Assembly (NCBI GenBank): GCA_963205235.1
Contig: CAUJIP010000066.1
Coordinates: 1 to 52,894, forward strand
Reading direction: 5' to 3'
DNA: 52,894 nt
DNA from: Pseudomonadota bacterium
GTDB taxonomy: Bacteria > Pseudomonadota > Alphaproteobacteria > Rhodobacterales > Rhodobacteraceae
The number at the start of each line of letters is the position of its first letter. The stretch's first letter is position 1. Below the pieces are notes generated by a model. That model saw only the letters and a program-made list of their open reading frames with translations. It was not told the DNA's origin and made no database searches. The position numbers were made by a program, and so were the translations under genes. This document shows positions 1 through 32,126 of this stretch, piece by piece.

Positions 1-1397
1 TCACTTTCGCGCTGGAAGGTTCGCGCTACGACTATGCCTATGTCACCCCGCAAGGTGCGCAATGTGTCGTCGCGGCGGGAGAGGATCTTCGCCTGTTGCC
101 AAGGGTCACCAGCGGCAAGGTCACTGTGACGGGGGAATGGCGGCGCGATCACGCGGCCAACGTGGCGATGACCTTTTCCGGTGCCGCCGGGTTCGAGGGG
201 ACTATCGATCTGTTCCCTGCAATACCGCCTGAGCCCACGACCGACAGTTTCGATCAAGCCCGCGCCGGGGCGGCTGACGACTTTGCCGACTGGCTGTCGC
301 GCACGCCCGAGGGTGGCCAGACCGAAGCGCGCAGCCTTGCCGCCTATCTTCTGTGGGCCAATACGGTCCCGGCCTCGGGCAATCTGACCCGGCCCGCAGT
401 CTATATGTCCAAGAACGCCATGATCAACATCTGGTCCTGGGACAATGCCTTTTCGGCCCTTGGCGTCGCGGCGATGGACCCTGACCTTGCTTTCGACCAG
501 TTCGCCGCGATCTATGACCATCAGCACCCTTCCGGCCTACTGCCGGATTTCGTCAATGACCGAGAGTCCTATTTCGCCTTCACCAAACCCCCGGTGCATG
601 GCTGGGCGATCCTGCGGCTGATCGAAAGCCAACCTGACTGGCTGACCGAACCGCGTCGCGCAGCTTTGGTGCCTTGGCTGGAACGCCAGCTTTCCTATTG
701 GCTGACCCATGCCCGGAAGGATGCCGACAGCCTGCCCGCCTATTGCCACGGCAATGACTCCGGCTGGGACAACGCCACCTTCTTTGCCGAGGGCGGCCCG
801 GTCCTGACACCCGATCTGCCGACCTTCCTGATCTTGACCTGCGATTGCCTTGCCCAGCTTGATCCCGTCCGCGCCGCGCACTGGAAGGCCGAAGGCGCGA
901 AGCTTTCCACCCTTCTTGCCACGCTCTGGACTGGCGAAGCTTTCGGCACCCGCCTGACCGCCGATCCCACACGCCTGCGGCAGGACGAAAGCTTGATCGG
1001 CTTTATCCCCCTGGTTCTTGGGGCCCGTCTCGCACCCCACATGGCCAGCCGTCTGATCGACCGGCTGGATCAGGGCTGGATCACCGACTGGGGCCCGGCC
1101 ACCGAACGCCCGCAAAGCCCGCTTTACGAGGCCGACGGCTATTGGCGCGGGCCGATCTGGGCGCCGACGACGATGCTTTTGTGGGATGGCCTTCTGCGCC
1201 AAGGCCACGACGACAAGGCCGCCGACATCGCCCGCCGCTTCTGCCGACTTTGCGAAACCTCGGGCATGGCGGAAAACTTCGACGCGCTCAGCGGCGCGGG
1301 CTTGCGTGACCGCGCGTTTGCCTGGACTTCTGCGGTATATCTTCTGCTTTCGGCCTGGCTCGCCGCCCGCAAAATCCAAGGACAAGACCAAGCATGA
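1..1397 (+). CDS. GH63/MGH1-like alpha-glycosidase, 5' partial
   Basis: The reading frame is open at the left edge, so the N-terminus and start lie outside; about 464 residues are visible. It looks like the (alpha/alpha)6-barrel glycosidases of the GH63 / mannosylglycerate-hydrolase-like group. The visible landmarks are a WSWDNAF segment (near nt 430), NDSGWDNATFF (near 760), YWRGPIWAPTT (near 1140) and AENFDALSGAG (near 1270). The D of the second block and the E of the last sit where the family keeps its catalytic acid and base. Family members cleave alpha-linked glucose or mannose, often 1,2-linked or on small aglycones such as glycerate. The stop overlaps the next ATG by 4 nt, so the two genes are translationally coupled. 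Whether a signal peptide is present cannot be seen. The family call is firm; the substrate is unknown. Confidence 0.82.
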   Translation, partial: TFALEGSRYDYAYVTPQGAQCVVAAGEDLRLLPRVTSGKVTVTGEWRRDHAANVAMTFSGAAGFEGTIDLFPAIPPEPTTDSFDQARAGAADDFADWLSRTPEGGQTEARSLAAYLLWANTVPASGNLTRPAVYMSKNAMINIWSWDNAFSALGVAAMDPDLAFDQFAAIYDHQHPSGLLPDFVNDRESYFAFTKPPVHGWAILRLIESQPDWLTEPRRAALVPWLERQLSYWLTHARKDADSLPAYCHGNDSGWDNATFFAEGGPVLTPDLPTFLILTCDCLAQLDPVRAAHWKAEGAKLSTLLATLWTGEAFGTRLTADPTRLRQDESLIGFIPLVLGARLAPHMASRLIDRLDQGWITDWGPATERPQSPLYEADGYWRGPIWAPTTMLLWDGLLRQGHDDKAADIARRFCRLCETSGMAENFDALSGAGLRDRAFAWTSAVYLLLSAWLAARKIQGQDQA

Positions 1398-4300
1398 CCC
1401 TGTTCGCGACCGCCAATCCCGCCTTTTCCGATGCCGAGCTTCTGGCGCTCGCCTCCCGGCATTTCGGAAAATCCGGCAAGATCCGTCCGCTGCCCTCCGA
1501 AAGGGACCAGAATGCCCGCCTGACCGTGGCAGATGAAGAATTCGTTCTGAAGATTGCCAATCCCGCCGAAGACCCCGGCCAGATCGACCTGCAGAACGCA
1601 ACGTTGCTGCATCTGGCCCGTGTCGGCCAACCCGGCATCCCGCGCGTCGTGCCAATGCTTGACGGCAAGGACCGCGCGACCCTCAGTGTCGATGGTCAAC
1701 CCGCCCTGATGCGCCTTGTCACCTGGGTCAGCGGCAAGCCCCTTGCCGAAGCGCCGCACAGCCCGGACCAGCTTGCCGCACTTGGCCGGTTCATGGGTGG
1801 GCTTACCCGGTCGATGCAGGGCTTTGGTCACCCGCAGGCCTTCCGCCCAGATTTCCCCTGGTCGCTGGACCATGTGATCCAGCTTAAGGACCACGCAGCC
1901 GACATCACCGACCCGGCCCGCCGCGCCTTGGTTGAACGGCTGTTCGCCCGGTACGAAGCGCAGGTCCTGCCGCGCCTTCCCGGCTTGCGTGCTTCGGTGC
2001 TGCATCAGGATGCGAATGACTGGAATGTCATTGTCGACCCCACGGACCCGACCCACATTGCCGGGCTGATCGACTTTGGCGACATGTGCCATGGTCGTAC
2101 CGTCAACGAGCTTGCCATCACGCTGGCCTATGCCTTGCTTGACACGCCCGATATCTATTCTGCCCTGCGCGTGCTGATTGCTGCCTTTGCTGAAAGCTTC
2201 CCGCTGACGGAAGACGAGGCCGATCTGGTCTTTGACCTGATGCGGATGCGGCTTGTCTGTTCGGTCTGCATCTCTTCGCGCCAGTCGAAGCTGCACCCGG
2301 AAAACGACTATCTGCTGATCTCGCAAGCCCCGGCCTTTGCGCTGCTGGAGCGGCTCGACAGTCTTGATCCGGCCTTCATGATCGCCCTTTGCCGCAAAGC
2401 CGCCGGGTTCGAGGCGGTTCCCGGCACGACGGAAATCATTACGGACATTGCAAACCGCGCGACCCATCCGATCCTTGCCGCCGACCCCCGCCGTGCCGCT
2501 CGGATAGCGCTTCCGACCGACGGCAGCCGGGTCGGAATGCCCGTCTATTCCGACCGCGCCTTTGACGACTGGTTTACCGCCCAACGCCCCGCCAACCTGC
2601 CAGCCGACATCCCCTTCCTTGGCTTCGGCCTTTATGGCGAGAAGCGCTCGGTCTACACCTCGGCCCATTTCGCCGATGCTGCCAGCGAAGAACGTCGCAC
2701 CCGCCACCTTGGGGTGGACATCTTCGCCCCGGCAGGGACCGCCGTTCATGCACCGCTGGATGGGGTGGTCGAAAGCGTCACCTACAACGCCGACCCGCTG
2801 GACTATGGTAATACACTGGTCCTGCGGCACAAGACTGCAACTGGCAGGCCGTTCTTTACACTGTATGGCCACCTTGCGGGCACGCTTCCCGGTCTTTGCA
2901 CCGCCGGCCAGACGATCAAAGCTGGCGACCTTGTCGCCCATTTCGGCGATTGGCATGAAAACGGCGGCTGGGCGCCGCATGTGCATTTCCAGCTGGTCAC
3001 CAGCATGCTGACCCAGTCCGGCAATTTCTTCGGCGTGGGTCACGCCAGCCTTTGGGACACCTGGGCCGACATCAGCCCGGATGCCAACCTGATCCTGCGG
3101 CTGGAACCCGAAAGCTTTCAGATCGACCCCGAACCGCCCGAAGCGCTACTTGCCCGCCGGCGCAAGGTGATCGGGCCGTCCCTATCAATTTCCTACCGCG
3201 AAAAGCTCAAGATCGTCCGGGGTCGTGGCCCCTGGCTGATCGACCATACCGGGCGGCGCTATCTGGACACGGTCAACAACATCACCCATGTCGGCCACTG
3301 CCACCAGCATGTGGTGCAGGCGCTGGCCCGGCAGGCGGCTGAATTGAACACCAACAGCCGCTATCTGCACGACGGCATGCCCCGCCTTGCAGAGCGCATC
3401 GCCGCCACCATGCCCGGCGACCTGCGCGTTGTGTATTTTGTCAATTCCGGCACCGAAGCGAACGAGCTTGCCCTGCGCATCGCCCGTACCGCGCTGGGGA
3501 AGAAAGACACCGTGGTCCTTGACTGGGCCTATCACGGCAATTCCGGCGGCACGGTGGAAATCAGCCCCTACAAGTTCAAACGCAAGGGTGGCTTCCCGCA
3601 GCCCGATTTCGTGCAGATCGCAACCTTCCCCGATCCCTATCGCGGCCCGCACCGTGGGCCAGATTCCGGCCCCGCCTATGCCGCCGATATCGACCGCTGC
3701 CTTGATGCCATCGAGGCGCGCACCGGCACGGGCGCTGCCACCTTCATCGCCGAATCCCTTTCCGGCGTCGGTGGTCAGGTGATCCTGCCAAAAGACTATC
3801 TGGCGCAGGTCTATTCCCGCATCCGGGCGCGCGGCGGCATCTGCATCGCGGATGAGGTGCAATGCGGCTTTGGTCGCGTCGGCCCCGCCTTCTGGGGCTT
3901 TGCGACCCAGAACGTCACGCCGGATATCGTCGTCCTTGGCAAGCCCATCGGCAACGGGCATCCGCTGGCTGCCGTGGTCACCACGCCCGAACTTGCCGCG
4001 AAGTTCGCCAACGGGATGGAGTATTTCAACTCTTTCGGCGGCAACCCGGTCTCGATGGCCGTGGGCCACGCCGTCCTGGACGTGATCGAAGCCGAGAACC
4101 TGCCCGCCAAGGCCGTCACGACGGGCGAAGGCCTGATGCAGGGCTACCGCGCCATGGCAGACCTCTTTCCGATCATCGGTGATGTGCGTGGCATGGGACT
4201 GTTCGTCGGGGTCGAACTGGTGACCGACCGGGATACCCGCGCTCCTGCTACAGCTGCAGCCGACCACATCGTCGACCAGCTTCGCCTGCGCGGTGTTCTA

Positions 4301-4423
4301 GCCTCGACCGACGGGCCGGATGACAACGTGCTGAAGATCAAGCCGCCCATGGTTTTCGGCCCGGATGAAGCCGCGATCCTGCTGGCGGAAACCGAAGCCG
4401 CCCTTTCCACTTTGCCCAACTGA
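1394..4423 (+). CDS. Kinase (APH) - M23 peptidase - class III PLP phospholyase fusion
   Basis: This is a 1009-residue three-domain protein. Residues ~1-340 are an aminoglycoside-phosphotransferase-type small-molecule kinase with HQDANDWN (H204, D206, N211) and IDFGD (D227). Residues ~400-560 are an M23 (LytM-like) domain with intact zinc ligands H438, D442, H529 and H531. Residues ~580-1005 are a class III aminotransferase-fold enzyme with DEVQCGFGR and [10 protein letters not shown] (PLP lysine K850). The kinase resembles hydroxylysine kinase. The last domain resembles the animal ammonia-lyases acting on phosphohydroxylysine or phosphoethanolamine (GMEYFN, GGNPVS and NVLKIKPPM motifs). By inference one chain phosphorylates a hydroxyl group and then eliminates phosphate and ammonia. 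No signal peptide is seen, so the M23 domain is probably cytoplasmic and its job is unclear. The start overlaps the upstream stop (ATGA). Confidence 0.88.
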
Positions 4424-4440
4424 CCAACCCGGAGGAAGAA

Positions 4441-5184
4441 ATGAAACGGACTGCCCTTACCCTCTTTGCCGCCCTTGCGCTGACCACAGCCGCCCATGCC
4501 GCCGATCTTGGCGGAGCGACCCTGAAAGTCGCGTCCGACACCACCTCTCCACCGATGGAGTTCATCGATCCCGACACCGGCGCAATCGTCGGCTTTGACG
4601 TCGATGTGGTGAATGCGATCTGCGCCAAGATCAACTGCACCGCCGAATTCGTCACCACCGGCTGGGACGGCATCTTCACCGCCCTTCAGGAAGGCCAGTT
4701 CGATCTGGTGGCTTCGGGCGTGTCGATCACCGACGAACGGCTTGAGGTGATGGATTTTTCGGATCCCTACATCATCAACGGTCAGGCCATCCTTGTCCGC
4801 GCCGCCGATGCCGCGCTGACGGTCGATGACTTCAAGTCCGGCAAGAAGCTGTCGGCCCAAGCCAACACGACCGACGCAGCCACCGCCGAGGAAATTGCCG
4901 GGAAGGACAATGTGCAGGCCTATGACACTTTCAACGGCTCGGTCCTGGCGCTGCGTAACGGCGATGTCGACGGCGTGGTGATCAACGGCGCGAACGCCGC
5001 CGCCTATGAGGCCGAGTTCGCGGGCGAACTGGTCGTGACGATCCGGGACCTCAAGGCCGACCCGCTGGGTCTGGTGTTCCAGAAGGGCGACGAAAAGGTC
5101 GCGGCCTTCAACGAAGGGCTGGCCGCGATCAAGGCCGATGGCACGCTTGACGCGCTGATCGCCAAGTACTGGACCGCCGAGTAA
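4441..5184 (+). CDS. Amino-acid-type ABC transporter substrate-binding protein (family 3)
   Basis: A 247-residue periplasmic binding protein. A Sec signal peptide covers residues 1-20 (MKRT, a hydrophobic core, then AHA-A). The mature part follows the polar-amino-acid binding fold: PPMEF after the first strand, GFDVDVVNAICAKI, WDGIFTALQEGQFDL, SGVSITDER and DFSDPYI. The usual GTTGE-like ligand loop is replaced by an ANTTDAATAEE segment, so the ligand may not be a standard amino acid. GGAGG sits 6 nt before the ATG. It lies 17 nt after the kinase-lyase gene and is followed by a strong hairpin, so it should be a more abundant product than the downstream genes. Its partner permease is at 7703-9226. 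No ATPase gene is in the window. Confidence 0.92.
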   Translation: MKRTALTLFAALALTTAAHAADLGGATLKVASDTTSPPMEFIDPDTGAIVGFDVDVVNAICAKINCTAEFVTTGWDGIFTALQEGQFDLVASGVSITDERLEVMDFSDPYIINGQAILVRAADAALTVDDFKSGKKLSAQANTTDAATAEEIAGKDNVQAYDTFNGSVLALRNGDVDGVVINGANAAAYEAEFAGELVVTIRDLKADPLGLVFQKGDEKVAAFNEGLAAIKADGTLDALIAKYWTAE

Positions 5185-5193
5185 CACGCCCTC

Positions 5194-5226
5194 GGCCATG
5201 GCGGACCCCCTGCCATGGCCCCTTTT
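5194..5226 (+). terminator. Strong stem-loop with T-tract between binding-protein and GH1 genes
   Basis: GGCCATGGC (5194-5202) pairs perfectly with GCCATGGCC (5212-5220) across a 9-nt loop, and CCTTTT follows directly. It lies inside the operon just after the binding-protein stop. That is a common place for a partial terminator or mRNA-stabilising hairpin that raises binding-protein expression over the genes behind it. Confidence 0.75.
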
Positions 5227-5252
5227 GACTCGCATTCCCAAGGTAGCGACCC

Positions 5253-6626
5253 ATGCTTGACCACAGCTCTGACGATCTTCTTGCCCGCGCCCGTGCGCTG
5301 CACCTGCCCCGCGACTTCGTTTTCGGGGGTGCCACCGCCGCCTATCAGATCGAGGGCGGATGGAACGAAGACGGCAAGGGCGAAAGCATCTGGGACAGGT
5401 TCTGCCGCAAGCCGGGTGCCATCATCGACAAAAGCTCGGGCGACGTGGCTTGCGACCACTATCACCTGTGGCAAGACGACATCCGCCTGATGCAAGACCT
5501 TGGCCTTGACGCCTATCGCTTCTCGATCGCGTGGAGCCGCGTACAGCCGGAAGGCCAGAGCGCGATGAACCAGAAGGGCATCGCCTTTTACGACAGGCTG
5601 ATCGACGGGCTTTTGCAGGCCGGGATCACGCCTTACCTGACGCTTTACCACTGGGACCTGCCGCAAGCCCTGCAAGACAAGGGCGGCTGGTACAACCGCG
5701 ACACGGCCCACCGGCTGGCCGACCATGCCGAAGCCATGGCCCGCACCTTTGGCGACCGCGTCAAGCACTGGACCACGCTGAACGAACCTTGGACCTTCTG
5801 CTGGTCCGGCCATGCCAGTGGAGAGGACGCACCCGGCCTGACCGACGGCGTCAAGGGTGGCCTTCTGGCCAGCCACCACGCCCTGCTTGGCCACGGGCTT
5901 TCCGTCCCCCGCATCCGCGCCGCCGCACCGGGGGCCGAGGTTGGCATCGTTCTGGACCTGAACGTCGTCGAACCGGCATCGCAAAAACCGCAGGATGTGC
6001 AGGCCGCGAAACACTTCGAGCTGGCACAGAACCGGTTCTACCTCGATGCCGTCTTCAAGGGCCGCTACCCGCAGGAATTGCTCGACCTCTGCAAGGACCA
6101 ACTTCCCGACATCCGCGACGGCGACCTTGCCACGATCTCCGCCCCCGTCGACTATCTCGGCGTCAACATCTACCGCCGTTCGGTCATGCAGGCGGGCGCC
6201 GAACTGCCGCCCCTGAACTTCGCCCGCGTCAGCCCGCCCGGCGATTACACGGCCGTCGGTTACGAGATTTACCCGCCTTGCATCCATGACATCCTGACCT
6301 ACGTCCACCGCGACTATGCCCCGCGGGCCATCCACATCTCGGAAAGTGGCATGGCCACCCGGCCCGAGACGCCCGAGGCCGATGGTCTGATCCACGACCG
6401 CCAGCGCGCGGCCTATTACATCGACCACATCGCCGAACTTGACCGCGCCCGTCGGGCAGGGGTGCCGGTAAAGGCCTATTTCGCCTGGACTCTGATCGAC
6501 AATTTCGAATGGGCCTATGGCTATACAACCCCATTCGGCATCGTGCATGTCGATCTGGAAAACCAGAAACGCAGCCCCAAACTGTCCGCCCTTTGCTATC
6601 GTGAAGTCATTGACGCCCGCCGCTGA
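5253..6626 (+). CDS. GH1 beta-glycosidase (beta-glucosidase/beta-galactosidase family)
   Basis: A 457-residue glycoside hydrolase family 1 enzyme of normal family length. The N-terminal block FVFGGATAAYQIEGGW, the acid/base glutamate in TLNEPW (E178) and the nucleophile in ISESG (E364) are present. So is the C-terminal WTLIDNFEWAYGY block that shapes the sugar-binding -1 subsite. GH1 enzymes remove beta-linked glucose, galactose or related sugars with retention. No signal peptide is seen, so it acts in the cytoplasm after uptake. It follows the binding-protein gene and hairpin and precedes the LacI gene by 22 nt. The sugar specificity cannot be read from the sequence. Confidence 0.95.
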   Translation: MLDHSSDDLLARARALHLPRDFVFGGATAAYQIEGGWNEDGKGESIWDRFCRKPGAIIDKSSGDVACDHYHLWQDDIRLMQDLGLDAYRFSIAWSRVQPEGQSAMNQKGIAFYDRLIDGLLQAGITPYLTLYHWDLPQALQDKGGWYNRDTAHRLADHAEAMARTFGDRVKHWTTLNEPWTFCWSGHASGEDAPGLTDGVKGGLLASHHALLGHGLSVPRIRAAAPGAEVGIVLDLNVVEPASQKPQDVQAAKHFELAQNRFYLDAVFKGRYPQELLDLCKDQLPDIRDGDLATISAPVDYLGVNIYRRSVMQAGAELPPLNFARVSPPGDYTAVGYEIYPPCIHDILTYVHRDYAPRAIHISESGMATRPETPEADGLIHDRQRAAYYIDHIAELDRARRAGVPVKAYFAWTLIDNFEWAYGYTTPFGIVHVDLENQKRSPKLSALCYREVIDARR

Positions 6627-6648
6627 CCTGCCCCGAATGAGGTAACCC

Positions 6649-7689
6649 TTGCGCAAGACCACCCCGCGACCCACGATCAAGACGCTGTCCGAGATGACCG
6701 GCTTTTCCATAGCCACCATCTCGAAAGCGCTTGGCAATTCGCCGGTGGTGACCGAAGCGACAAGGCAGGCGATCATCGAAGCGGCGGAAAAGGTCGGCTA
6801 TCAGGCCTCGCTTCGGGGCCGGTCGCTGCGCACGGGAAAGTCGTATCAGATTGCAGTGCTGATGCCGCTTTCGGTGGCGAAAAGCCATGAATGGAACGGG
6901 GTCGAACATGCCGAAATCCTTGCCGGAATTGTCGAGGGGCTGGAAGGTTCGCCCTATCGCATCGCCGTCCATCTGGTGCGCGATACCGAAGACAGCCTTG
7001 ATGTGGTCCGCAGCATCGTCGAGGGGCATCAGGCCGATGGGTTGATCTTTTCGGGCATCCTGTCCGACGATCCGCGCATCGCCTTTCTGGCCACGCAAGG
7101 GTTTCCCTTTGTCACGCTGGGCCGCAGCCACACCGCCGCGCCGCATGCCTTTGTCGACATCGACAGCGAATGGGCCGCCCATACCGCTACCCTGCGCCTG
7201 CTGGAGGGCGGTCATCGTCGCATCGCCCTGGTCAACCCCACGCCCGAGCTTGCCTATAGCCGCGACCGCATCAACGGCTATTCCCGCGCCCTGACCAAAG
7301 CGGGCCTGCCCTTCGACCCCAGCCTGATCATCGGCGGCGATCTGACCACCCGACATGGCAAGGATGCCGCCCTTGCGCTGCGCGCCCTGCCCGATCCTGC
7401 CACCGGGTTTGTCTGCGTCAACGAATCCACCGCGCTGGGGGTGCTTTCCGGCCTGCACTCGCTTGGCATCGATGTTGGTGCCAAAGCCTCGGTCATCGCC
7501 TATGACGACATCAACGCCAGCGCCTATTTCTGGCCACCGCTGACCACGTTCCTTTACCCACTGGAAACCCTCAGCCGCGTGCTGGCCCAGTTCATGTTGC
7601 GGCTCTTGCAGGGCGAAAACCCCGCCAGCCTGACGCATTTCGTCCAGCCGCAGATGATCATCCGCCAACCCGACCGCCTGATCCCGTGA
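6649..7689 (+). CDS. LacI-family transcriptional regulator
   Basis: A 346-residue LacI/GalR repressor starting at TTG, with a gaggt-type site just upstream. The N-terminal helix-turn-helix and hinge helix are clear (TIKTLSEMTGFSIATISKAL, then VTEATRQAIIEAAEKVGY). A periplasmic-binding-protein-like sensor domain follows, with GLIFSGI, FPFVTLGR, FVDIDSEWAA, GHRRIALVNP and AYDDINASAYFWPPLTT. It sits inside the transport/glycosidase operon and is probably its local repressor, responding to a sugar or sugar-linked inducer. Its operator was not identified, and the main promoter may lie left of the window. Confidence 0.93.
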   Translation: MRKTTPRPTIKTLSEMTGFSIATISKALGNSPVVTEATRQAIIEAAEKVGYQASLRGRSLRTGKSYQIAVLMPLSVAKSHEWNGVEHAEILAGIVEGLEGSPYRIAVHLVRDTEDSLDVVRSIVEGHQADGLIFSGILSDDPRIAFLATQGFPFVTLGRSHTAAPHAFVDIDSEWAAHTATLRLLEGGHRRIALVNPTPELAYSRDRINGYSRALTKAGLPFDPSLIIGGDLTTRHGKDAALALRALPDPATGFVCVNESTALGVLSGLHSLGIDVGAKASVIAYDDINASAYFWPPLTTFLYPLETLSRVLAQFMLRLLQGENPASLTHFVQPQMIIRQPDRLIP

Positions 7690-7702
7690 CGGAGTGTCCC
7701 TT

Positions 7703-9226
7703 GTGAAACGCCTGCCCCGGCTTGATGCCCTGCGCCCCGCGAACTTCCTGTTGCTGCTGGCGTTTCCGTTTCTGGTCTGGCTGTTCCTGTCCTCGACCGA
7801 CTACAGCCGCTCCTTCGCCGCCATCATCGGGGTTGAACGTGGTTCGGCCAACCAGCTTCCCGGTTTCCTGCTGTTTGCAACGCTCTTTGCCGGTGCCTTG
7901 GCCGCAACCCTGACCGGACGGCAAAGCCTGTTCCTTGTGTCGCTGGCGGCAGGCCTGACGCTGACGGTGACGCCCCTTGGCCAGCCTTTCCTTGCCGCAA
8001 ACCTTGCCGAGTCGGCAACTTCCACCCTCAGCCGCGGCCTGCCGATTGCCCTGACCTTGGCCAATGCGCTGCTGTTCGCTTTGTCGCGCAAGTATCGCGT
8101 TGCCCGACGCGGTCTCTTGGCGCTGAACGGGGCGGGGCTGGCTGGCCTGTTCCTTTTCGCCCATCTTGGCTTTGCCACCGGCCTTGCCGTCGCCGTGCGG
8201 GCCGGGGTGACTGCCTATATCCTTGCCTCGATCCTGGCGCTGTTCTGGGTCGGCCTGATGCAACTGCGCCTGTCCCGCCGCAGCCTGCCGATCTTCTTGG
8301 CGCTTGCCGTCGCCGCCCTTGCCCTTTCCGGCTCGCAATTCCTGCAACCACACATTCCGGTGGCACTGATCGGCGATGCCTCCGGCACCGTCGGGATCAC
8401 TGTCGGCACTCCCGCCCAAGTGGTCGACGCGATCCGCCATGGCTCCTGGCCCGATGCCCCTGAAACCGACCCCAAGATCCGCACTGTCCTGACAGCCGAG
8501 GAAGGCATCGCGCAGTTGCAATCGGGCAAGCTCTCCGGCGTCGTCCTGCCCACCCCGCTTGCCCCACCCGCACTGATCCTTTGGCAGACCGAGGTTCTGC
8601 CCGATGCCCAAGCCAACCTTGGGATCACCGCACTTGTCCTTGGGATCGCGCTTTTGCTTTTGACCACCTGCGGCTGGATCTACCGCCGTCATCCCCTGTC
8701 CATCGCAGCCGAATTCCTGATCGACACCCTGCGCGGCATTCCGATGCTGGTGATCATCCTTTACATCGGCCTGCCTTTGGCCGGGGTGCTGAAATCCTCG
8801 ACCAATGGCTTTCTTGATCCGCCAAACCTGCTTCGTGGGATCACCGCCATGGCCATCGCCTATTCCGCCTACATGGCCGAGATATTCCGCGCCGGTATCA
8901 ATGCGGTGCCCACAGGGCAGGTCGAGGCGGCGCGCAGCCTTGGCCTGACCCGCTGGCAAACCGCCCGACATGTGATCTTGCCGCAGGCCTTCCGCATTGT
9001 GATCCCGCCGATGGGCAATGAATTCATCGCCATCCTCAAGGACACCTCGCTCCTCTCGGTCTTGTCGATCCGCGACCTGACCCAGCGGATGCGCGAATTC
9101 CAGTCCGCAACCTTTCTGACCTTTGCGCCCTATAACACGGTGGCCATCATCTATGTCTTCCTCACCCTCATCGCCGCCAGCCTTGTCGCCCGCGTCGAAC
9201 ACCGGTTCCGCAACCATCAACGCTAG
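7703..9226 (+). CDS. ABC amino-acid-type permease with extra N-terminal membrane half
   Basis: About 507 residues. The C-terminal ~220 residues are a standard polar-amino-acid ABC permease, with TLRGIPMLVIILYI, YMAEIFRAGINAV and the EAA loop EAARSLGLTRWQTARHVILPQA-like block. The first ~215 residues hold five or six predicted hydrophobic helices. They are followed by a soluble stretch (ALIGDASGTVGITVGTP to LQSGKLSGVVLPT) that resembles part of a family 3 binding-protein lobe. I chose the GTG at 7703 because GGAG (7691-7694) sits 8 nt before it; a GTG at 7694 is the in-frame alternative. The partner is probably the binding protein at 4441. No ATP-binding subunit is present locally. Confidence 0.87.
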   Translation: MKRLPRLDALRPANFLLLLAFPFLVWLFLSSTDYSRSFAAIIGVERGSANQLPGFLLFATLFAGALAATLTGRQSLFLVSLAAGLTLTVTPLGQPFLAANLAESATSTLSRGLPIALTLANALLFALSRKYRVARRGLLALNGAGLAGLFLFAHLGFATGLAVAVRAGVTAYILASILALFWVGLMQLRLSRRSLPIFLALAVAALALSGSQFLQPHIPVALIGDASGTVGITVGTPAQVVDAIRHGSWPDAPETDPKIRTVLTAEEGIAQLQSGKLSGVVLPTPLAPPALILWQTEVLPDAQANLGITALVLGIALLLLTTCGWIYRRHPLSIAAEFLIDTLRGIPMLVIILYIGLPLAGVLKSSTNGFLDPPNLLRGITAMAIAYSAYMAEIFRAGINAVPTGQVEAARSLGLTRWQTARHVILPQAFRIVIPPMGNEFIAILKDTSLLSVLSIRDLTQRMREFQSATFLTFAPYNTVAIIYVFLTLIAASLVARVEHRFRNHQR

Positions 9227-9866
9227 CTGGCTGGTCACAGGAGCATCCCGCGGGCTTGGCCTCTGCCTTGTCCGCCAGCTTTCGGCCAGCGGCGCGCGCG
9301 TGCTTGCCCTGTCCCGCAGCACCGGACCTGCCCTTCCCGGCGTGACCCATGTCGCATATGACCAGTCGGATGCGGCCTCGATCACCGCTGCCGCGCAGGC
9401 CATTTCGACACCCATCGACTATGTCATCCACAATGCCGCCATTCGCGGTGATACCGGCGGATTGGCGAGCCTGACCGCAGACCATCTGGCCGAGGTCATG
9501 CGGATCAACGTCGCGGGGCCCCTTCTTCTGACGCGCGCTCTGCTTCCGCACCTGTCCCCAAGGGCCACGCTTGCCTTCATCTCCAGCCGCGCGGGGTCGT
9601 TCACCGAAGGCCACGATCCCGACGGCGACTATGCCTATTGCCTGTCAAAGGCCGCGCTGAACCGGGCAGTGGCCAAGCTTGCCGATGATCTGTCGTGCAG
9701 GGTTCTGGCCCTGCACCCCGGTTGGCTTCGTACCGACATGGGCGGGGACGAGGCCCCCGACGACCCCGAAACCGCCGCCGCCCGGATCCTGTCGCTGCTG
9801 GTCAATCCAAAGGGACCGCGAACCGGAAGCTATTGCGATTCCTACGGCAAACCGATCCTGCCTTAG
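9153..9866 (+). CDS. Short-chain dehydrogenase/reductase
   Basis: A classical SDR of roughly 225-237 residues. It has the nucleotide-binding WLVTGASRGLG motif, NAAIRG, a serine in FISSRAG and the YCLSK catalytic tyrosine-lysine pair. The domain begins only around nt 9225, so the start is uncertain. ATG 9153 is the first good in-frame start, TTG 9183 is another, and both overlap the permease end in a different frame. As the last gene of the operon it may oxidise or reduce an intermediate of the imported compound, for example a semialdehyde or a sugar. This is inference from position only. It ends 9 nt from the convergent flagellar operon. Confidence 0.85.
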   Translation: MSSSPSSPPALSPASNTGSATINASWLVTGASRGLGLCLVRQLSASGARVLALSRSTGPALPGVTHVAYDQSDAASITAAAQAISTPIDYVIHNAAIRGDTGGLASLTADHLAEVMRINVAGPLLLTRALLPHLSPRATLAFISSRAGSFTEGHDPDGDYAYCLSKAALNRAVAKLADDLSCRVLALHPGWLRTDMGGDEAPDDPETAAARILSLLVNPKGPRTGSYCDSYGKPILP

Positions 9867-29576: not shown

Positions 29577-30227
29577 ATGTCCATCCGTATCAACGACATC
29601 GCCCCTGACTTCACTGCCGACAGCACTGCTGGAACGATCAAGTTCCATGACTGGCTGGGCGACAGCTATGGCATCATCTTCAGCCACCCGCGCGATTTCA
29701 CGCCGGTTTGCACCACCGAATTCGCTGCCGTCGCCCAGCTGGCCGAGGAATGGAAAAAGCGGAAGACCAAGGTGATCGGCGTGTCGGTCGACGGCGTATC
29801 GGACCACGAGAAGTGGAAGCGCGACATCGAGGCCTTTGGCGGTGCGCCCGCTGATTTCCCGATCATCGACGACACATCGCTGACCGTGGCCAAGGCCTTT
29901 GATATGCTGCCGGCCGAATACTACCTGCCGACCGAGGGCCGGACCCCCGCAAATACGGCGACGGTGCGCACGGTCTATATCATCGGGCCGGACAAGAAGG
30001 TGCGTCTGACGATGACCTACCCGATGTCGGTGGGCCGCAACTTTGCCGAAATCCTGCGGGCGCTGAATGCCGTGCAAAAGACCGACGGCGTGCCGCTGGC
30101 GACCCCCGCCAACTGGGTGCCGGGTCAGGACGTGATCGTGGCCTTGGCGTTGAGCAACGACCAGGCCAAGGAACGCTTTGGCGAGCTGGACATCAAGCTG
30201 CCGTATCTGCGCTTCGCCAAGGTCTAA
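29577..30227 (+). CDS. 1-Cys peroxiredoxin (Prx6 family)
   Basis: 216 residues. The peroxidatic cysteine is in FTPVCTTE (C45), and the long C-terminal Prx6 extension (GRNFAEILRALNAVQKTDGVPLATPANW) is present. It reduces hydrogen peroxide and organic hydroperoxides. ATG 29577 is preceded by GAGG at 5 nt, and the conserved fold starts here; the frame is open 144 nt further upstream, but that part is AT-rich leader. It is monocistronic, with its own terminator. Confidence 0.95.
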   Translation: MSIRINDIAPDFTADSTAGTIKFHDWLGDSYGIIFSHPRDFTPVCTTEFAAVAQLAEEWKKRKTKVIGVSVDGVSDHEKWKRDIEAFGGAPADFPIIDDTSLTVAKAFDMLPAEYYLPTEGRTPANTATVRTVYIIGPDKKVRLTMTYPMSVGRNFAEILRALNAVQKTDGVPLATPANWVPGQDVIVALALSNDQAKERFGELDIKLPYLRFAKV

Positions 30228-30243
30228 GCCGACGCACCAATGA

Positions 30244-30280
30244 AAAGGACCCCGGAGTGTTTCCGGGGCCTTTCTCGTTT
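30244..30280. terminator. Bidirectional hairpin terminator after the peroxiredoxin gene and the pnp 3' copy
   Basis: CCCCGGA (30250-30256) pairs with TCCGGGG (30262-30268), with outer AAGG/CCTT pairs, and TTTCTCGTTTT follows on the + strand. On the - strand it sits right after the stop of the duplicated pnp tail and has an A/T-rich exit (TCCTTTTC). It looks like the original pnp terminator. Confidence 0.75.
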
Positions 30281-30291
30281 TGAAATTCAGA

Positions 30292-30515
30292 TCAGCCCTC
30301 GGCCGATTCCTCTTTCTTCTCGACGATCTCTTCGCCGGTTTCCTGGTCGACCATCTTCATGCCAAGGCGGACCTTGCCACGGTCGTCAAAGCCCAGCAGC
30401 TTGACCTTGACCTCCTGGCCTTCCTTCAGAAGCTCGTTCGGGTGGTTCAGGCGCTTGTTGGCGATCTGGGACACGTGGACCAGACCGTTGCGCTTGCCGA
30501 AGAAGTTCACGAAGG
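30292..30515 (-). pseudogene. Duplicated 3' end of pnp (S1 domain and tail)
   Basis: Its 72 translated residues match the last part of PNPase encoded at 31903-32126 almost exactly; only two residues differ (KRNG for KRDG, EIVEKK for EITEKK). By hand count about 18 of 224 bases differ and nearly all are silent. No proper start is present, because the ORF begins at an internal GTG. The copy is followed by its own hairpin terminator. It is a remnant, most simply the original pnp 3' end displaced by an incoming DNA segment. Confidence 0.88.
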
Positions 30516-30520
30516 TCCAC

Positions 30521-30557
30521 CGGAACCTACTGGAACCTACTGGAACCTACTGGAACC
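30521..30557. repeat. Ten-base tandem repeat at the edge of the inserted segment
   Basis: GGAACCTACT is repeated three times (30522-30551), followed by a partial fourth copy, GGAACC. The array begins 6 nt after homology between the two pnp copies ends. It lies between that junction and the ATPase stop. Confidence 0.9.
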
Positions 30558-30584
30558 CGGCAACTTAGTTTTTTGCCACCGAAC

Positions 30585-31817
30585 CTACGCAGAGTCTCCA
30601 AAGAAGTCCTCTCGCCCCGACCTCCCAACTGCCAAAATCCAAGTCGCGAATGAACGTGTTGGAAGGCGATAGAAACCTCTCCGTGCGTCGTCCGCGAGGA
30701 CTATTTCTCTGCTCTTAAGGGCCATCAGTGCATTATCAACGTTAGTTGAAGCAACGCCACAGTTCTGAATGATATCTTTTCTCGATACCCACTGGTCACC
30801 ATGGGTTGCCATATAGTCCAAGACTTTTCTATACTCAGATGATAAAATCTTTGAAAAATACTGTTTGCTGAAGTACTTCGCACCAAGTTGCGAAATAGCT
30901 CCATTCTCTGAATAAGCGCCGGTCGATACATCGTGAATGTCAATTTTATCATCAGTGTCGACCTGAAAGGCGGAAGACGAAAACTGCTGAACGAAATGCG
31001 GGTAGCCTTCCGAAAGCATCGCGATCAAATCAAGTGCATCGTCAGATATTGCAGTCTTGCGCTCGTTCTTTTCATTCGCGATGGAAATCCCACGCTGAAC
31101 TACAGCCCGCCGCTCTGACTGTTCCAGAGGGTGCATGTCGACGATCTGAAACACTCGCAGGGATGATTCGTGACTTTCACGGAGGCGACTAATTAAAAGT
31201 GACTGACCTGCAAGGATGAGAAGCAGATGGGGTTGTCCCCGTTTAGAAAGCCTCTCAGTAAAGACTTTTACGAACTCACCAAGATTAGCTGCAGCAGGTG
31301 GGCTGTCAGCCTCGTCCAAAAGGAATACAACACCATCAAATTGTTCACTACCAATAAGTTGGTCACAAATGGTGACCAGGTCGTCAAGAAGTTCATCTGG
31401 GTCAAGCTCATCGTCTCGGGCATTGTATTTGACGCCGAGAACCTCCCAATTGGACAAGAACTCCCATACCTTCCTTGCCTTGTCCTGCAATTTTTGATGT
31501 TGACGAAGTTTAGATCGCAGCTCGCGAGCAACTTGCTTAATCAAGCCTACCTGGCTGGAAATTCCAGCCAAGTCCGTTGAAACGGTAATAAAGTTAAAAT
31601 TGGTGTGATCATCTTCAATTTCTCCACGCGCCACCAAGTCCGCGTAGAACAGTAAAGAAGATTTTCCGATTCCGCGCTCACCAGTAAGCAGAAGGTGCTG
31701 TGGGTTGCCGTTAAGAGTTTGGAACAGCGCCTGCTCAATTGTTTGAATTTCGTCAAGTCTGCCGATGAACATCCCGGGGTAAGCGATGCCGTTGGGAACA
31801 AACGGATTGAACTTCAT
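30585..31817 (-). CDS. AAA-type ATPase with C-terminal winged helix, in an AT-rich insert
   Basis: 410 residues. Walker A is GERGIGKS (46-53), Walker B is VVFLLDEAD (163-171), a sensor-like ILAGQS is at 201-206, and EGYPHFVQQF at 270-279 is typical of the Orc1/Cdc6 and archaeal-type AAA ATPases. A winged-helix-like C-terminus covers ~330-390. The start at 31817 is set by GGAG 7 nt upstream; the frame is open further but runs through the pnp terminator. Base composition is clearly more AT-rich than the neighbours, pointing to transfer. The gene lies between two copies of the pnp 3' end. The function is unknown; replication-initiator-like, transposition-helper and defence roles are all possible. 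Confidence 0.9.
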   Translation of the reverse strand: MKFNPFVPNGIAYPGMFIGRLDEIQTIEQALFQTLNGNPQHLLLTGERGIGKSSLLFYADLVARGEIEDDHTNFNFITVSTDLAGISSQVGLIKQVARELRSKLRQHQKLQDKARKVWEFLSNWEVLGVKYNARDDELDPDELLDDLVTICDQLIGSEQFDGVVFLLDEADSPPAAANLGEFVKVFTERLSKRGQPHLLLILAGQSLLISRLRESHESSLRVFQIVDMHPLEQSERRAVVQRGISIANEKNERKTAISDDALDLIAMLSEGYPHFVQQFSSSAFQVDTDDKIDIHDVSTGAYSENGAISQLGAKYFSKQYFSKILSSEYRKVLDYMATHGDQWVSRKDIIQNCGVASTNVDNALMALKSREIVLADDARRGFYRLPTRSFATWILAVGRSGREDFFGDSA

Positions 31818-31853
31818 GGTCGATCTCCGAGACTTTTGGAGAACTGTAACACG

Positions 31854-31885
31854 AAGGCCCCGGCGTTTCCACCGGGGCCCTGTTT
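31854..31885 (-). terminator. Hairpin after pnp
   Basis: GGCCCCGG (31856-31863) and CCGGGGCC (31872-31879) form a perfect 8-bp stem with an 8-nt loop, 24 nt after the pnp stop. The T-tract on the - strand is poor (TTCGTGTT), so some readthrough into the ATPase gene, 38 nt further on, is plausible. Confidence 0.7.
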
Positions 31886-31902
31886 CGGCGTCGAAGAAGA
31901 CC

Positions 31903-32126
31903 TCAGCCCTCGGCCGACTCTTCTTTCTTTTCGGTGATTTCCTCACCGGTCTCCTGGTCGACCATCTTCATGCCAAGGCGGACCTTGCCACGGTCGTCGA
32001 AGCCCAGAAGCTTGACCTTCACTTCCTGGCCTTCCTTCAAAAGCTCGTTCGGGTGGTTCAGGCGCTTGTTGGCGATCTGGGACACATGCACCAGACCGTC
32101 GCGCTTGCCGAAAAAGTTCACGAAGG
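31903..32126 (-). repeat. Intact copy of the pnp 3' direct repeat
   Basis: This segment of the functional pnp gene is repeated in the same orientation at 30292-30515 with about 92% identity by hand count. The pair brackets the ATPase gene (repeat-to-repeat spacing 1611 nt). Homology stops abruptly inside the S1 domain, after AAGTTCACGAAGG. Confidence 0.9.

Follow-up and report, generated by a model that had tools for sequence, protein, structure and literature searches.

We analyzed a 52,894-nucleotide contig, hereafter the window (CAUJIP010000066.1; contig C66 of the 3.79-Mb, 131-contig Rhodobacteraceae genome GCA_963205235.1), whose first seven genes likely form one operon around a three-domain fusion protein. 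From sequence and structure comparisons, we propose that this operon takes up and degrades glycosylated 5-hydroxylysine, and we put the probability of this reading at roughly 0.7. Animal collagen is chemically marked by glycosylated hydroxylysine, which is excreted in urine; most likely, a hydroxylysine recycling route so far described for animals is present here in a relative of Rhodobacter. An original prediction for this DNA had named an alpha-glucosidase, a beta-galactosidase, a hydroxylysine kinase, and a phosphohydroxylysine lyase. This core of predicted activities gained support from replacement of the glycoside hydrolase family 1 (GH1) gene by GH2 or GH42 in relatives, from flavobacterial gene neighbors, from a dehydrogenase gene adjoining the operon in 4 of 18 related genomes, and from phospholyase matches.

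Open reading frame and profile searches recovered all seven genes on the plus strand in the predicted order, each with a family match (Table 1). Because the intergenic gaps are only −8 to +68 bases (with the start of the short-chain dehydrogenase/reductase [SDR] gene, 9219, set by eye), a single operon is likely; the GH63 and fusion genes overlap by 4 bases. The predicted amino-acid-type ATP-binding cassette (ABC) system is there in part, as one binding protein and one permease, and no ATPase was seen in the operon. In the proposed route, a sugar ABC importer encoded upstream, as judged from relatives, would take in probably Glc-α1,2-Gal-β-O-hydroxylysine or Gal-hydroxylysine, and the amino-acid-type binding protein and permease may import free or less glycosylated hydroxylysine. 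GH63 would strip the glucose and GH1 then the galactose, after which the kinase domain would phosphorylate the 5-hydroxyl of hydroxylysine and the pyridoxal phosphate (PLP) domain would eliminate phosphate and ammonia to give α-aminoadipate semialdehyde. An aminoadipate-semialdehyde (piperideine-6-carboxylate) dehydrogenase, adjoining the operon in some relatives and encoded on another contig here, would then yield aminoadipate. We infer every substrate and the order of steps from gene content, domains, motifs, co-occurrence, and neighborhoods, all of which were observed directly.

The fusion scored above the cut-off of the PRK06148 (NF004799) subfamily model over residues 3–1005 (1208 bits against 1128). 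It belongs to an already named and widespread family that is annotated as hypothetical and whose models carry no function. Both end domains of the predicted kinase-lyase fusion were found; the M23 metallopeptidase domain in its middle had been missed. Across 38 aligned fusions, the kinase domain (APH, 95.2 bits) has invariant D206, N211, and D227, which we take to be catalytic and metal-binding residues of an APH-type kinase, and the PLP lysine K850 is likewise invariant. Two solved PLP phospholyases, 6tor and 5g4i, ranked top for the lyase domain by both sequence and structure. The class-III fold, the PLP lysine, and these closest kin support the assignment of the C-terminal domain as a putative PLP O-phospholyase. 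A 2012 study of hydroxylysine kinase reportedly used bacterial fusions as a clue.

M23 peptidase domains are best known from cell-wall enzymes. Fold searches covered the lyase and kinase parts of the fusion, and the M23 part was compared by sequence, aligning with solved M23 domains. Its HxxxD and HxH metal motif is invariant in all 38 aligned fusions, intact at 18 of 19 further family loci, and kept from Rhodobacteraceae to Flavobacteriaceae. In the one paralogue of the PRK06149 type examined, four of the five M23 metal residues are changed, whereas the window protein passes as PRK06148. With its metal site intact, the domain probably hydrolyzes some related bond, and a short peptide containing hydroxylysine may be its target. 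A bolder version of our proposal, which we regard as tentative and rather doubtful, is a dedicated glycosyl-hydroxylysine pathway that arose repeatedly by drawing on different glycosidase families, with a three-activity fusion whose M23 domain frees hydroxylysine from short peptides for phosphorylation by the kinase and opening by the lyase. If true, a cytoplasmic M23 domain would gain a role in amino-acid catabolism; the arrangement raises the question of why an M23 peptidase domain sits between a kinase and a lyase. Elsewhere, at G002:C7:2050-4349, a lyase-type stretch lies beside a kinase-type stretch that contains a stop, the two giving separate matches; this is a possible unfused relative without M23.

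To place the operon among its relatives, we used the best 80 of 171 places confirmed by a GTDB contig scan, in which the closest named relatives of the window were Rhodobacteraceae and Tabrizicola records. Genes at these loci were called with a codon-score script, and the names SusC/D, galactokinase, mutarotase, GalT, S9 and S37 peptidases, α-ketoglutarate-semialdehyde dehydrogenase, and importer permeases and ATPase were assigned by eye rather than by family search. Near the fusion, GH63 occurred at 43 of the 80 loci, GH1, GH2, or GH42 at 42 (GH2 at 32, GH1 at 8, GH42 at 2), and both at 39. A glycosidase lay within 1.5 kb of 46 of 80 fusions, compared with none of 23 other class-III aminotransferase genes in the genus, and, of 32 genus genomes, GH63 was present in the 7 that carry the full-length fusion and in no others. 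The seven-gene order recurs at eight loci (L034–L040 and L042, with L037 and L040 [Stagnihabitans tardus CYK-10] near-identical); together with the shared GH63 distribution, this marks the grouping as more than chance. At 25 loci, a YgjK-type GH63, the fusion, and a GH2 beta-galactosidase are consecutive on one strand, and 13 loci carry galactose-pathway genes; both the trio and galactose genes are seen in Flavobacteriaceae isolate BB35 (L111). A different setting is found at three rhizobial plasmid loci, where an Lrp/AsnC regulator stands on one side of the fusion and an amino-acid binding protein on the other, and in Paracoccus seriniphilus, where its neighbors are a MurR/RpiR regulator and a gene of the glutamine-synthetase family. 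What the family has in common may be the use of amino acids, to which some clades added sugars.

In alignments of the window GH63 to GH63 proteins of solved structure, D256 and E424 fall in the acid/base region, and both are presumably catalytic. Its homologues carry ~89 extra N-terminal residues relative to the contig-truncated window copy. A role as glucosylglycerate hydrolase was rejected (NF047898, 60.3 bits against a cut-off of 550, scored on the 5′-cut protein). The match to Escherichia coli YgjK, which shares the GH63 catalytic-domain family, was weak at 25.8 bits; Glc-α1,2-Gal has reportedly been obtained as a YgjK glycosynthase product. GH1 exceeded its model cut-off of 478.5 bits, and in relatives its place is taken by beta-galactosidases of the families GH2 (32 loci) or GH42 (2 loci). 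On the basis of this positional replacement, we propose that GH1 would take galactose off Gal-β-O-hydroxylysine. An example of the GH2 enzymes passed its own model (1005.8 bits; cut-off 999), and the GH63 beside a GH2 reached 342 bits with the YgjK model, below the cut-off of 625, and appears exported by eye. Flavobacterial loci encode a YgjK-type enzyme with the YgjK N-domain. Since the GH63 enzymes of the two phyla are only 26% identical and the second glycosidase family differs, different glycosidases look to have been separately recruited for one job. A caveat is that the glycosidase label clusters on a quick tree of 92 fusions, which has long branches and leaves out L086 (its frame contains a stop) and 10 of the 19 additional family loci: the label needs 16 changes against a shuffled mean of 31.0, so the loci are not independent. 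On the same tree, L041, titled Exiguobacterium profundum, falls among Rhodobacteraceae, and its title looks wrong. At two loci, L109 (8744–9922) and L113, the fusion is accompanied by a gene that resembles, by eye, a GH27 alpha-galactosidase and by a second GH2.

The predicted product, α-aminoadipate semialdehyde, is matched by a neighboring gene in some relatives. An aminoadipate-semialdehyde dehydrogenase gene lies no more than ~11 kb from the fusion in 4 of the 18 genomes of the window's clade, taken at ≥64% identity (the window's genome, L034–L044, L058, Paracoccus seriniphilus L114, G075, G365, G081, and G326); a GH63, GH1, or GH42 gene is nearby in 14 of the 18. In G030 and G016, an L-piperidine-6-carboxylate dehydrogenase (799 and 804 bits; cut-off 730) lies ~10 kb away, with a saccharopine-dehydrogenase-like gene (Pfam) in between. 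Homologues of this dehydrogenase (80%–83% identity) lie 5–7 kb from the fusion in G081 and G326, adjoining an operon of importer, GH63, LacI, fusion, and GH42, divergently in one genome and downstream in the other. The four genomes show three arrangements. Because the gene is mostly single per genome (12 fusion-bearing genomes tested: single in 10, double in 1, absent in 1), we estimate chance adjacency at around 1% each. In the window's genome the dehydrogenase is on contig C59, and in G032 it is far from the operon on the same chromosome. No dehydrogenase above 50% identity was found within the first 80 loci; the cases appeared with longer flanks and further genomes. A family search with a threshold of E 1e-200 detected the fusion in 33 of 394 genomes, G081 and G326 among them. 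The SDR had been offered as a possible next step, and nothing supported it as the next catabolic enzyme; the aldehyde dehydrogenase fits better.

The second element absent from the original prediction, after the M23 domain, was a CUT1-type sugar importer upstream of the operon. In relatives such as L034 and L036, the importer genes run straight into GH63 and the fusion. Contig C65 of the window's genome starts within a GH63 gene, followed by two CUT1-type permeases, an SBP_bac_1 sugar-binding protein, and an ABC ATPase. Its GH63 piece (L003, 1–505) is 77% identical to window positions 3–239 over 79 shared residues and 100% identical to L039, so that strain mixing or recombination likely lies behind two overlapping GH63 pieces in one genome. 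As the contig overlap has mismatches, we infer the C65-C66 junction rather than observe it. No signal peptide was seen by eye on GH63 (judged from relatives) or GH1, and therefore the glycoside is probably imported whole. In the window permease, ~300 residues precede the transport domain. The block of SBP_bac_3-type binding protein, permease, and SDR is missing from the operon in L142 and L143, where the second glycosidase is GH42; in Defluviimonas L044 it is present, apart from the fusion and divergent.

Signs of collagen use were sought in the neighborhoods. Some flavobacterial copies of the fusion have galactose, hydroxyproline, and prolyl-peptidase genes around them. Hydroxyproline-type genes occur at 12 of 80 loci, three of which have a single such gene, and prolyl-peptidase-type genes at 10 of 80; at L052 the relevant gene is of the proline-racemase family and scores below the epimerase cut-off. 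Xaa-Pro-peptidase-type genes share some loci with hydroxyproline-type genes; for two peptidase clusters, only Xaa-Pro-type models matched, below their cut-offs. Among 11 genomes chosen for hydroxyproline-type or related genes at their loci, 4-hydroxyproline epimerase was over cut-off in 9 and matched at all in 10, with one or two copies each. By coordinates, it sits inside the locus or on its border in L055, L056, L062, L084, and L087, 0.4 kb past it in L109, 2.5 kb past it in L113, and, provided that the numbered contig is the same record, ~1 kb past it in L095. By our own rough estimate, chance would place an epimerase in a 23-kb stretch in about 1% of cases per genome, with the 80 loci not being independent.

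Several observations weigh against glycosylated hydroxylysine as the substrate. In the window's genome (G000, 97.6% complete), no 4-hydroxyproline epimerase was found (NF010578, E 1e-60), and in the genus the epimerase was over cut-off in 3 of 7 fusion-bearing compared with 15 of 25 fusion-free genomes, which gives no positive link between epimerase and fusion. Collagen as the host's actual food is unsupported in this genome, and hydroxyproline catabolism in the host was rejected on the missing epimerase match; for this host, free glycosyl-hydroxylysine therefore looks more plausible than whole collagen. In 14 of the 18 clade genomes, no dehydrogenase was seen close to the operon, although several of these loci are short or cut. 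The fitting GH1 model, TIGR03356, carries a beta-glucosidase name, sugar 1-kinases ranked second in the structure comparison of the kinase domain (26.8), and 5g4i was level with dialkylglycine decarboxylase by Z (44.7). The best lyase match acts on phosphoethanolamine, in a compared set that held no phosphohydroxylysine-lyase sequence. The proposed route accounts for neither the M23 domain nor the SDR. Finally, at 25 of 80 loci not one of the marker genes was seen, and five Rhodobacteraceae fusions at 38%–42% showed no nearby glycosidase marker, so the family may have other substrates.

These last loci, with the missing epimerase in the host and kinase and lyase folds that fit several amino alcohols, are what would be expected if the same enzymatic logic served another aglycone, such as another glycosylated amino alcohol, with hydroxylysine one of several family substrates. 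We consider this unlikely, as the hydroxyproline and prolyl-peptidase genes at some flavobacterial loci and the dehydrogenase adjoining the operon in 4 of 18 genomes point to hydroxylysine. Less probable still is that the glycosidases and sugar importer handle an ordinary disaccharide from plants or algae, with the fusion, a separate amino-acid enzyme, sharing the operon by chance. Sugar systems often have LacI-type control and CUT1-type import, GH1 fits the beta-glucosidase model, and in rhizobia the fusions occur by themselves next to an Lrp regulator; however, the 4-base overlap of GH63 and fusion, their matching distribution over the genus (7 of 32 genomes), and the recurrence of the pairing in another phylum with different glycosidases argue against this reading. 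Degradation of ethanolamine via phosphoethanolamine would suit the top structural matches of the lyase domain, which are phosphoethanolamine-type phospholyases, but we give it very little credence: no ethanolamine genes were recognized beside the operon, where the neighbors are instead glycosidases, hydroxyproline genes, and the aminoadipate-semialdehyde dehydrogenase.

Excerpts of PMC5200902 describe the hydroxylysine pathway as metazoan. Relative to animal HYKK and PHYKPL, as excerpted from PMC5200902 and PMC9283133, the proposed glycosylated-hydroxylysine operon has the same two predicted steps to aminoadipate semialdehyde and the same broad enzyme families; the bacterial version differs in that a single protein combines them with an added M23 domain and its gene shares an operon with glycosidase and importer genes. 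Animal PGGHG, a GH65 enzyme, takes glucose off Glc-α1,2-Gal-Hyl, and the bacterial GH65 of the same paper acts on kojibiose (PMC8626586, in part); the predicted reaction in the window is the same, with GH63 in place of GH65. In PMC9061262, YgjK is assumed to act naturally on a different alpha-glucoside, whose identity is described as unsettled. A collagen-utilization cluster of Colwellia from a marine bone microbiome combines hydroxyproline genes and prolyl peptidases (PMC7883544, in part), a combination common to some flavobacterial fusion loci; the main text of that paper never mentions hydroxylysine. No bacterial glycosyl-hydroxylysine pathway or operon was found among the open-licence PubMed Central entries that our searches listed. 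What seems new is the way the operon fits together, its reappearance with different glycosidases, and the conserved M23 site. So defined, the operon would offer a sequence marker for carbon and nitrogen flow from glycosylated hydroxylysine, candidate enzymes to trim or read collagen glycans, and a function for a widespread hypothetical fusion family.

Table 1. Genes and fusion domains at the start of the window
Feature	Position	Strand	Support
GH63-type glycosidase, proposed alpha-glucosidase; 5′ end truncated by contig start	3..1397	+	Pfam MGH1-like_GH, 158 bits
Three-domain fusion, 1009 aa: APH-type kinase, M23 metallopeptidase, class-III PLP phospholyase	1394..4423	+	Pfam and NCBIfam
Fusion kinase region, ~residues 1–389	1394..2560	+	
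Fusion M23 region, ~residues 401–559; metal motif H438/D442/H493/H529/H531	2594..3070	+	Peptidase_M23, 59 bits
Fusion PLP phospholyase domain, residues 583–1009; PLP lysine K850	3140..4420	+	
Amino-acid-type periplasmic binding protein	4441..5184	+	SBP_bac_3, 133 bits
GH1 beta-glycosidase, proposed galactose removal	5253..6626	+	TIGR03356, 556.8 bits
LacI-type regulator	6649..7689	+	Pfam Peripla_BP_3 and LacI
Amino-acid-type ABC permease, long N-terminal extension	7694..9226	+	BPD_transp_1, residues 327–506; EhuD-like, 123 bits, below cut-off
SDR oxidoreductase, start 9219 set by eye, uncertain	9219..9866	+	adh_short, 81.7 bits

Beyond the SDR gene, flagellar genes follow on the opposite strand. 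Further along the window, G+C content falls to 0.52 at positions 30001–32000, compared with ~0.61–0.62 on either side, and an open reading frame on the minus strand of this stretch (30585–31946) resembles, by eye, an ATP-binding protein.

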